Assembly: GCF_001602375.1 (NCBI RefSeq)
Contig: NZ_BCNY01000007.1
Coordinates: forward strand, 1 to 64,000
Source: Methanoculleus horonobensis
GTDB taxonomy: Archaea > Halobacteriota > Methanomicrobia > Methanomicrobiales > Methanoculleaceae
Length of the DNA stretch: 64,000 bases
Reading direction: 5' to 3'
How positions within the stretch are numbered: position 1 is the stretch's first letter; each line of letters begins with the position of its first letter. A program made the position numbers and the translations under genes. Positions 21,350 to 24,247 of this stretch are shown piece by piece. The notes under the pieces are model-generated. The model made no database searches and was not told the origin of the DNA. It saw only the letters and a program-made list of their open reading frames with translations.

Positions 21350-21547
21350 ATGGCACGATGGGTCTGCAGTGTCTGTGATTACGAGTATGTTGAGGAGGCG
21401 GGAGACCCGGCTACCGGGATGCCGCCGGGAACGCCCTTCGAAGATCTCCCCGGCGACTGGCGGTGCTCCCGCTGCAGCGCGGGAAAGGAGGCGTTCGTGC
21501 GGGCCGGCGAGGAAGAGGTGGAGATGAATGACGAAGACTACCTCTGA
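21350..21547 (+). CDS. Rubredoxin
   Basis: A 65-residue rubredoxin with the iron ligands C6-x2-C9 (VCSVC) and C39-x2-C42 (RCSRC) and the GTPFEDLPGDW core. A TATA element (cttttttata, about 21292-21301) precedes it. The last 12 residues (EEEVEMNDEDYL) form an acidic tail not needed for the fold. The stop lies 10 bases before the chosen start of the TPP enzyme, so the pair is one transcript and the rubredoxin may be its electron partner (inference). Confidence 0.92.
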   Translation: MARWVCSVCDYEYVEEAGDPATGMPPGTPFEDLPGDWRCSRCSAGKEAFVRAGEEEVEMNDEDYL

Positions 21548-21557
21548 AGGAGCCGCC

Positions 21558-23147
21558 ATGACCGTGGCCGACGTGCTGGTCTCGGAACTCGCGGCCTGGG
21601 GGATCACCCTCTACTTCGGCATCCCCGGCTCATCGTCGCTCCCGCTCGTGGACGCGGTCCGGAGGAATCCGGACGCACGCTACATCGTCGTCCGGCACGA
21701 GCAGACCGCGGCCCTCGCAGCCTCGGCCTACAACAAGTTCACGGGAAAGGTCGCCGTCTGCCTGACTATCGCCGGGCCGGGGGCGACGAACCTCGCCACC
21801 GGCCTCTATGACGCGAAAGAGGATCGGGCGAGCGTGCTCTCCCTGAATGGGCAGGTGCAGGCGCAGTACGCCGGCCCCGGCGGCGTCCAGGAGATCGACC
21901 AGGACGCGTTCTTCCGCCCGATCGCGGTCTTCAACAACACCGTCGCCGACCCGTCGACGGCGGTCAAACTCCTCACCCGGGCGCTCCGGTACGCGATCGT
22001 CGGCCGCGGCGTCGCCCAGCTCTCTCTTCCGAACGATATCCAGAGGGAGCCGCTCGAACCGGCCTACTGCGAACGCGAGACCTGCCTCGCGGAAGTCACG
22101 ACGGCCCCGACCGGCGAGGCCGTCCGTGCGGCGGCGGAGGCGATCGACGGCGCGGAGCGGCCGGTCATCCTCGCGGGCTTCGGCGCCATGCGTGCGGCGG
22201 AAGCGGTCATCGAGCTTGCGGAGACGATCCGGGCGCCTATCGTCACCACCTTCAGGGCGAAGGGCATCCTCCCCGACGAGAACGAGTGGGTTGCCGGGAT
22301 ACACGGGCCGCTCGGGACGCCGCACGCCCGGACGCTCGTCGAGGAGTCCGACCTCGTGATCGCCTGCGGGGCGAGTTTCTCCGACTTCACCGGGATCCCC
22401 AATGAGAAGCGGGCCGTTCACATCGATATCGATCCGCTTCAGCTCGGCAAGCACCCGCTCGCGGCAGGGGTCTATGGCGACTGCGCCGTTGCCATACCCC
22501 TGATCCGGGAACGGGTCCGGCCGCGGGAGGATACGGGGGCCGGGGAGTGGCTTATGGAACGGAAGCGGGAGTGGTTCAGCCACCTCGACCGGGAGGCCGA
22601 CCCGGAGGCGGTTCCGATCCGGCCGCCCTACATCATGAAAGTCCTCTCCGAGACCCTTCCGGAGGACGCCCTCATCTCCCTCGACGTCGGGGAGAACCAG
22701 TGGTGGTTCGGGAGGAGTTTCCGGATGAAGCGGCAGCGGTTCGCGATGTCGGGCTACCTCGGGACGATGGGGTTCGGGCTTCCCGGGGCGATTGCGGCGA
22801 AACTGGCCTACCCCGATGCGACCGTCGTCTGCATCACCGGGGACGGGGGGTTCTCGATGGTCATGGCCGACTTCGTCACGGCGGTCAGGTACGACCTTCC
22901 CATCGTCGTCGCGGTCTTGAACAACCACCAGCTTGCGATGATCCGGGAGGAGCAGCGGGAGGCGAACTATCCGCCCTACGGCGTTGAACTCACGAATCCC
23001 GACTTCGCGGCGTATGCGGAGGCCTGCGGCGGCGCCGGGATACGGGTGGCCCGGCCGCAGGATCTCGCGGATGCCGTTCTCCGGGCGGTGCGGATGGACA
23101 GGCCCGTCGTCGTCGATATCGAGACCGATCCTGTGCGCTTTGAGTAA
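21558..23147 (+). CDS. Thiamine-diphosphate enzyme (pyruvate oxidase / acetolactate synthase family)
   Basis: A 529-residue three-domain ThDP enzyme. The activating Glu is in VRHEQTAALAAS, and the ThDP/Mg motif is GDGGFSMVMADF ending in VLNN. The start at 21558 has AAGGAG eight bases upstream; an ATG at 21528 overlaps the rubredoxin. The size and the FGIPGSSSLPLVDA start fit the POX/ALS branch, but the acceptor and substrate cannot be read off. Linkage to rubredoxin suggests an oxidative decarboxylation that feeds electrons to it, rather than acetolactate synthesis (inference). Confidence 0.8.
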   Translation: MTVADVLVSELAAWGITLYFGIPGSSSLPLVDAVRRNPDARYIVVRHEQTAALAASAYNKFTGKVAVCLTIAGPGATNLATGLYDAKEDRASVLSLNGQVQAQYAGPGGVQEIDQDAFFRPIAVFNNTVADPSTAVKLLTRALRYAIVGRGVAQLSLPNDIQREPLEPAYCERETCLAEVTTAPTGEAVRAAAEAIDGAERPVILAGFGAMRAAEAVIELAETIRAPIVTTFRAKGILPDENEWVAGIHGPLGTPHARTLVEESDLVIACGASFSDFTGIPNEKRAVHIDIDPLQLGKHPLAAGVYGDCAVAIPLIRERVRPREDTGAGEWLMERKREWFSHLDREADPEAVPIRPPYIMKVLSETLPEDALISLDVGENQWWFGRSFRMKRQRFAMSGYLGTMGFGLPGAIAAKLAYPDATVVCITGDGGFSMVMADFVTAVRYDLPIVVAVLNNHQLAMIREEQREANYPPYGVELTNPDFAAYAEACGGAGIRVARPQDLADAVLRAVRMDRPVVVDIETDPVRFE

Positions 23148-23210
23148 GCCCGGGCGCTCCTCGCTCCTCACCGGGCCCCGGTGAGATGCGAGACGCCGTT
23201 CACCCGAAAT

Positions 23211-23489
23211 CTATAAGTATCCTGCAACTGTATGAAAAGCCGAGGGTAGATGTGAACATCCCGGCCATGGCCGCGCAGCCTGCGAGGGCCCTGCCGGGCA
23301 AGCGCGGATCTCCGGATGTCGATCCGGGTGGGAGCATCGGTATACCGTTCTTCGCTCCACGCTGAGGGTCCCCGGGAGCCTGTTAATCGAACGGGCGCTC
23401 GGGGTAAACTTGCGGCGAACCGGATCCGCTCCGGTTCACCGTTCTTCCGGCCGATAGTCTGCTGGACTCTTTTGGTGCTTCAAAAAGAG
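23211..23489 (+). ncRNA. Candidate structured non-coding RNA with own TATA box
   Basis: A gene-free 356-base gap between convergent genes holds a TATA element (ctataagtat, 23211-23220) followed by a chain of near-perfect hairpins: CGGC-CATG-GCCG (about 23262-23273), CCGGAT-GTCG-ATCCGG (23312-23327), GGAGC/GCTCC enclosing CGGTATACCG (23331-23358), CCCC...GGGG enclosing CCTGTT/AACGGG (23370-23404), GAACCGGA/TCCGGTTC (23417-23437) and CTCTTTT/AAAAGAG (23467-23489), which may terminate both flanking transcripts. No hallmark of SRP RNA or RNase P RNA is seen. Class unknown. Confidence 0.45.
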
Positions 23490-23503: not shown

Positions 23504-24247
23504 TCACTCGTCGGAGAGATAGTCGTAGAGGAACGCGGCGAGCACCGCACCGACGATGGGGCCGATGATGTAGATCGGGAAGAACTCCCAGAGGCTCTGG
23601 CCGGCAAGCAGCCAGTCCCCGAGGAAGGGGCCGAACGTACGGGCGGGGTTCAGCGACGCGCCGGTCAGGTTCCCGATCGTCGTGATGATCCCCGCGACCG
23701 TGAGACCCACCACAAGCCCGGCAAAGCCCGGCGTGGCCCGTTCGTCGACGGCGGCGCCCATGATGACGAGCATCAGAAGGAACGTCCCGACCGCTTCGAT
23801 GACGATCGCCTGCAGGTAGCCGATACCGGGGAAAGGGGCCGTTGCCCCGAGCCCACCGATGGCTACGGCGTCCGGGCCGACGGTCCAGGCGAAGAGGAGG
23901 CTTGCTGCCGCGGCGCCGACGAGCTGGGCGGCGATGTACGGGACGACGTCGCGGCCGGGGAGCCGGCGGGTTGCAAAGAGGGCTATCGTCACTGCCGGGT
24001 TGATGTGGCAGCCCGATATCCGCCCGAACGCATAGATAGATCCGGCGATGGCGATACCGAAGGCAAGCCCGATGGCGAGCCAGTCGCCGAGGCCACCGAG
24101 CACCCCGATCCCTATGTTGAAGGGGGTCGCCGGGGTGGTTCCTGCGGCAAGCATCAGCGTGACGGCCGCGGCGCCGGCACCGAAGAAGACGAGGATGAAT
24201 GTCCCGACGGCTTCGGCGACGCATCGTTTTCCAAGAGATATGGTCAT
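23504..24247 (-). CDS. aqpM: Archaeal aquaglyceroporin AqpM
   Basis: A 247-residue MIP channel with six membrane helices and the two NPA boxes, CHINPAVT and SLNPART, that meet in the pore. Methanogen AqpM passes water and some small neutral solutes. The gene has its own promoter: a minus-strand TATA-like cattaaaagg (about 24270-24279) places the transcript start at the ATG. A T7 tract upstream (24293-24299) separates it from DUF2180. Confidence 0.95.
   Translation of the reverse strand: MTISLGKRCVAEAVGTFILVFFGAGAAAVTLMLAAGTTPATPFNIGIGVLGGLGDWLAIGLAFGIAIAGSIYAFGRISGCHINPAVTIALFATRRLPGRDVVPYIAAQLVGAAAASLLFAWTVGPDAVAIGGLGATAPFPGIGYLQAIVIEAVGTFLLMLVIMGAAVDERATPGFAGLVVGLTVAGIITTIGNLTGASLNPARTFGPFLGDWLLAGQSLWEFFPIYIIGPIVGAVLAAFLYDYLSDE

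Follow-up and report, generated by a model that had tools for sequence, protein, structure and literature searches.

The intergenic region between a TPP-dependent enzyme gene and the convergent gene aqpM in Methanoculleus horonobensis probably holds a stand-alone, single-copy gene for a structured non-coding RNA, about 233 nt long and with its own promoter, whose product would act in trans as a regulatory small RNA (sRNA). Genome comparison supports conservation of the structure, strand and promoter of this RNA, and its vertical inheritance at one locus with repeated loss. The gene is previously undescribed. Cataloging of archaeal non-coding RNAs is poor beyond the universal classes, and Methanoculleus species are hydrogenotrophic methanogens that are common in anaerobic digesters and sediments. 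A sequence-only reading of the window (the whole stretch of 64,000 nucleotides analyzed here) had proposed a new structured RNA at this position (Table 1); conserved, covarying stems in 23 genomes, together with the lack of any matching Rfam family, bear this out.

Table 1. Features of the RNA locus and its flanks, as positions in the window
Feature	Position	Strand	Remarks
TPP-dependent enzyme gene, upstream neighbor	21528-23147	+	Pfam PF02775, PF02776, PF00205
Archaeal promoter, BRE CCGAAA and TATA box CTATAAGTA (TATA 23211-23219)	23204-23219	+	
Non-coding RNA gene, ~233 nt, predicted ends	23241-23474	+	TATA spacing, start of conservation, T-run
Unpaired 5' leader CGAGGGUAGAUGUGAAC	23241-23257	+	GAGGG and GTGAA invariant in 23/23
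Hairpin I, arms 23260-23272 / 23287-23298	23260-23298	+	Compensatory changes at 6/12 pairs
Hairpin II, CCGGAU-GUCG-AUCCGG	23312-23327	+	97% of cells paired
Hairpin III, outer GUGGGAGC/GCUCCACGC, inner CGG/CCG	23328-23362	+	97% of outer cells paired
Hairpin IV	23371-23403	+	Compensatory changes at 5-8/13 pairs
Hairpin V, GCGGCGAACCGGA/UCCGGUUCACCGU	23412-23442	+	96-98% of cells paired
3' tail, GC-rich hairpin (several homologs), then T-run 23470-23473	23445-23473	+	Probable terminator
Probable aqpM terminator T-run (AAAAAGAG on +), outside the RNA	23481-23489	-	Similar tract in RNA-less genomes
aqpM (MIP channel), convergent downstream neighbor	23504-24247	-	Pfam PF00230

The TATA box CTATAAGTA named in the sequence-only reading is present at 23211-23219 and belongs to a promoter that accompanies the RNA throughout: CCGAAA-N2-TATAWR lies 5' of it in 23/23 homologs, with a CCGGAA variant in one, and the distance from promoter to the invariant GAGGG of the RNA is 37-38 nt in each. 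Within the window, CCGAAANNTATAWRT has a single exact match, with 0.00 expected by chance. We place the 5' end near 23241 on the basis of TATA spacing and the onset of sequence conservation, which is where archaeal promoter spacing leads one to expect the start, and the 3' end near 23474 because of the T-run. The extent first proposed, 23211-23489, does contain an RNA and needs trimming at both ends; the RNA itself occupies about 23241-23474, and 23204-23219 is its promoter.

The fixed promoter spacing across all homologs points to transcription of the plus strand from the RNA's own promoter. The plus strand is also favored by base pairing in the alignment, where G-U cells outnumber C-A cells (113 versus 31). 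Folding energy was discarded as a strand criterion. The plus strand folds at -121 kcal/mol (z -3.3, below 200/200 dinucleotide shuffles) and the minus strand has a z of -1.7, but across the 23 homologs the mean z values are similar for the two strands (-3.5 on plus, -3.2 on minus) and hence uninformative.

At the 3' end, a T-run follows hairpin V near the expected terminus in 18/23 homologs, with none found in 5; runs of 4-7 T residues occur 199-223 nt after the GTG in 17/23 and at 184 in L021. A strong hairpin with a U-run is present in L012 and L014 and absent from some homologs, and a stricter terminator scan of the window found none. The complementary segments CTCTTTT/AAAAGAG (23467-23489), originally taken for a last stem, are probably two convergent T-run terminators instead, the T-run of the RNA facing that of aqpM itself, because RNA-less genomes retain a similar tract beside aqpM. 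In those genomes, hardly any sequence separates the TPP stop codon from AAAAAAAGAG or a comparable A-rich tract, beyond which lies aqpM.

Homologs of the RNA are confined to one genus. Searches with blastn recovered the region in 21/61 genomes, every one Methanoculleus, and a covariance model (R1), run against 232 genomes of the order, returned 23 matches, two of them divergent (L046 and L047). An improved model (R2) recovered the same 23 genomes. The carriers thus comprise 23/35 genomes of the genus, which named records identify as Methanoculleus; M. chikugoensis, M. sediminis and several Methanoculleus isolates are among them. Each carrier has one full-length copy, and the models found no homolog in the remaining 197 genomes from the order. 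Laxer filters applied to 24 negative genomes gave weak matches only. The two best of these, L085 (20.1 bits) and L086 (15.3 bits), both from outside the genus, were read by eye; they lack the promoter and core motifs, look coding, and were set aside as chance. A mobile element was ruled out, given the single full-length copy at one site in 23/23 genomes and the absence of any match to viral contigs and plasmids.

The stems proposed from the sequence proved to be both conserved and covarying when tested across these 23 genomes, with 16-19 compensatory pairs. In a plain MAFFT alignment, which is made from sequence only, compensatory changes occur at 16 pairs, against 8.8 in shuffles (0/500 reach 16), and 91.9% of cells pair, compared with 31-46% when partners are slid. 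The covariance model alignment of the same 23 sequences, which favors the structure by construction, shows compensatory changes at 19 pairs with 93.3% of cells paired, and again 0/500 shuffles reach 19. A tree-aware null, simulated along the phylogeny, yields 4.3 pairs, and 0/600 simulations reach 19, a margin somewhat flattered because the simulated columns are somewhat less variable than those observed. Hairpins I and IV and the inner helix of III show the strongest covariation. In hairpins II, outer III and V, the sequence is conserved to a degree that leaves little covariation; this is compatible with the structure but less informative.

At least five hairpins had been proposed; all are present at the positions in Table 1, and five are common to the homologs. 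Two of the perfect stems singled out in that proposal were likewise located, GAACCGGA/TCCGGTTC at 23417-23424/23430-23437 and CCGGAT/ATCCGG at 23312-23317/23322-23327. Among relatives, a single bulge base is gained or lost in hairpin I with the helix kept, and hairpin II is near-invariant, so that it is conserved without covariation. The inner helix of hairpin III covaries, reading CAG/CUG in L046 and L047 by eye. Hairpin IV is nearly all absent in L019 and shorter in L021, and in L047 a different perfect stem, GAUGGA/UCCAUC, stands in place of hairpin V. A helix joining the leader GAGGG to a 3' UCUUC was considered; its sides are near-invariant and it is broken in L046, leaving it unsupported.

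Two further sequence relationships were noticed inside the RNA. Positions 23338-23353 and 23432-23447 form an imperfect direct repeat (CGGTATACCGTTCTTC / CGGTTCACCGTTCTTC) that is alike in one clade and not in every homolog. GTGAAC in the leader (23252-23257) and GTTCAC in hairpin V (23434-23439) are exact reverse complements. By eye, this GUGAAC/GUUCAC pairing could be maintained through U-A or U-G in 21 homologs, while L046 and L047 differ on both sides; it is possible that the two segments constitute a refolding switch.

A trans-acting regulatory sRNA is the most likely function by analogy with known archaeal RNAs. The plus-strand RNA would be transcribed from its own BRE/TATA promoter and end at the T-run before aqpM, and the mature molecule would comprise the five hairpins, the conserved linkers between them and a 5' leader that hardly varies. 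Those conserved parts that stay unpaired, the leader GAGGGUANAUGUGAAC and the linkers, would probably pair in trans with one mRNA or a few, and the hairpins would supply stability and presentation, as has been reported for the intergenic sRNAs of Methanosarcina mazei.

An unlikely alternative, and the one that survives best, is that the RNA serves a ribonucleoprotein (RNP) as its scaffold or guide, in a structural rather than a base-pairing role, and has been lost in some species. Five hairpins with highly conserved linkers, near-invariance of hairpins II and III, a single copy and an independent promoter would all suit such a role, and so elaborate a multi-hairpin architecture is also typical of RNP RNAs. 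Yet no partner gene adjoins the RNA, and the TPP gene and aqpM stay adjacent in several RNA-less genomes. The TROVE/Ro60 gene is absent from 35/35 Methanoculleus genomes, which rules out a Y RNA of that system. Nor were C/D or H/ACA boxes recognized when the alignment was read by eye: no ACA follows any hairpin, no RUGAUGA is present, and the D-box-like CUGA at 23362-23365 is not conserved among homologs. The more specific notion of a new functional class, a genus-specific multi-hairpin RNP scaffold lost with its partner in several lineages, strikes us as quite improbable.

We also doubt strongly that the element acts in cis, as a 3' UTR or as an insulator or terminator of convergent transcription between the TPP gene and aqpM. 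All 23 copies do occupy that one site, with the TPP gene 5' of the RNA in 23/23 carriers (the L019 match is a fragment only) and aqpM convergent with it in 23/23 (L010 and L011 matches are partial only), and T-runs lie terminally on both strands. Against a role in cis, the RNA has its own promoter at fixed spacing in every carrier, and about 270-590 nt separate it from aqpM in L015, L018, L019, L021 and L046. A riboswitch or leader was ruled out because aqpM, the next gene downstream, is convergent.

Nine Methanoculleus genomes have the TPP locus without the RNA; 3 further genomes of the genus without a covariance model match fall outside this count. Four of the nine are clean empty sites by aqpM (G007, G009, G010 and G019), in which TPP-aqpM adjacency is kept with a short A/T tract alone between the genes, which also speaks against a function in cis. 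The other five have different sequence downstream of the TPP gene. In four of them, L058, L061, L063 and L065, an apparent archaeal histone gene, judged by eye and on the opposite strand, takes the place of aqpM after the TPP gene. On a tree of the TPP enzyme, presence and absence of the RNA need six changes, of which only three are forced by well-supported branches, the tree having weak forks. Most simply, this distribution suggests a single gain at the root of the genus, whose ancestor probably carried the RNA, followed by about five losses. Because related species live without the RNA, the locus is accessory.

Two observations concern the TPP gene itself. A 16-nt inverted repeat (CTCGCTCCTCACCGGG/CCCGGTGAGATGCGAG, 23160-23192) between its stop codon and the RNA promoter is perhaps part of its 3' end, and a tRNA-SeC called by ARAGORN at 22541-22631, inside its reading frame, is most likely a false positive.

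It is very improbable that the conserved element is instead a small protein gene, running for 37 codons from a GTG at 23252 to a TGA at 23365 (VNIPAMAAQPARALPGKRGSPDVDPGGSIGIPFFAPR) behind an RBS-like GAGGG. This GAGGG and the GTGAA at the start are invariant, and the frame is open to an identical stop in 11/23 homologs. However, parsimony in this intact set distributes changes evenly over codon positions (29/31/32), the synonymous fraction is not above that of the two other frames, 1- or 2-base indels or stops break the frame in most of the remaining homologs, and strong conservation runs beyond the stop into hairpin V. Of the ORFs listed over the region, the sole one tested, this GTG frame, is not conserved coding sequence. 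Chance palindromes can be dismissed almost entirely: the region is GC-rich and high GC makes short perfect stems common, but conservation and compensatory change over 23 genomes refute that reading.

For this RNA family, a covariance model, a promoter, named hosts and natural presence/absence pairs, such as G017 (with) and G010 (without), together make function directly testable.

Among known RNA classes, Rfam 15 gave 0 matches in the window at the gathering threshold, chance-level matches only at the locus (E 2.4 and 8.8), and 0 matches up to E 0.5 at eight homologous loci. Two long, structured archaeal RNAs had been set aside from the sequence, and both are encoded elsewhere in the genome with strong scores: archaeal SRP RNA (RF01857) at G000:C15:353658-353967 (175.9 bits) and the multi-hairpin archaeal RNase P RNA (RF00373) at G000:C13:125850-126192 (211.8 bits), neither of which matches this locus. 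We found no study of Methanoculleus sRNAs in the open-access literature.

Archaeal intergenic sRNAs range from 50 to 500 nt (PMC5867862); the RNA described here, taken between its predicted ends, falls in that range, and is intergenic, non-coding and equipped with its own promoter, as are intergenic trans-acting sRNAs of archaea. Like sRNA154, sRNA41 and sRNA162, the intergenic trans-acting sRNAs of M. mazei, it resides between genes of a methanogenic archaeon (PMC5867862), and with sRNA154 it also shares genus-level conservation and stable hairpins (PMC5867862). Unlike the M. mazei sRNAs, it is accessory within its genus, sequences having been compared via Rfam only. The archaeal intergenic sRNAs are the closest known kind.
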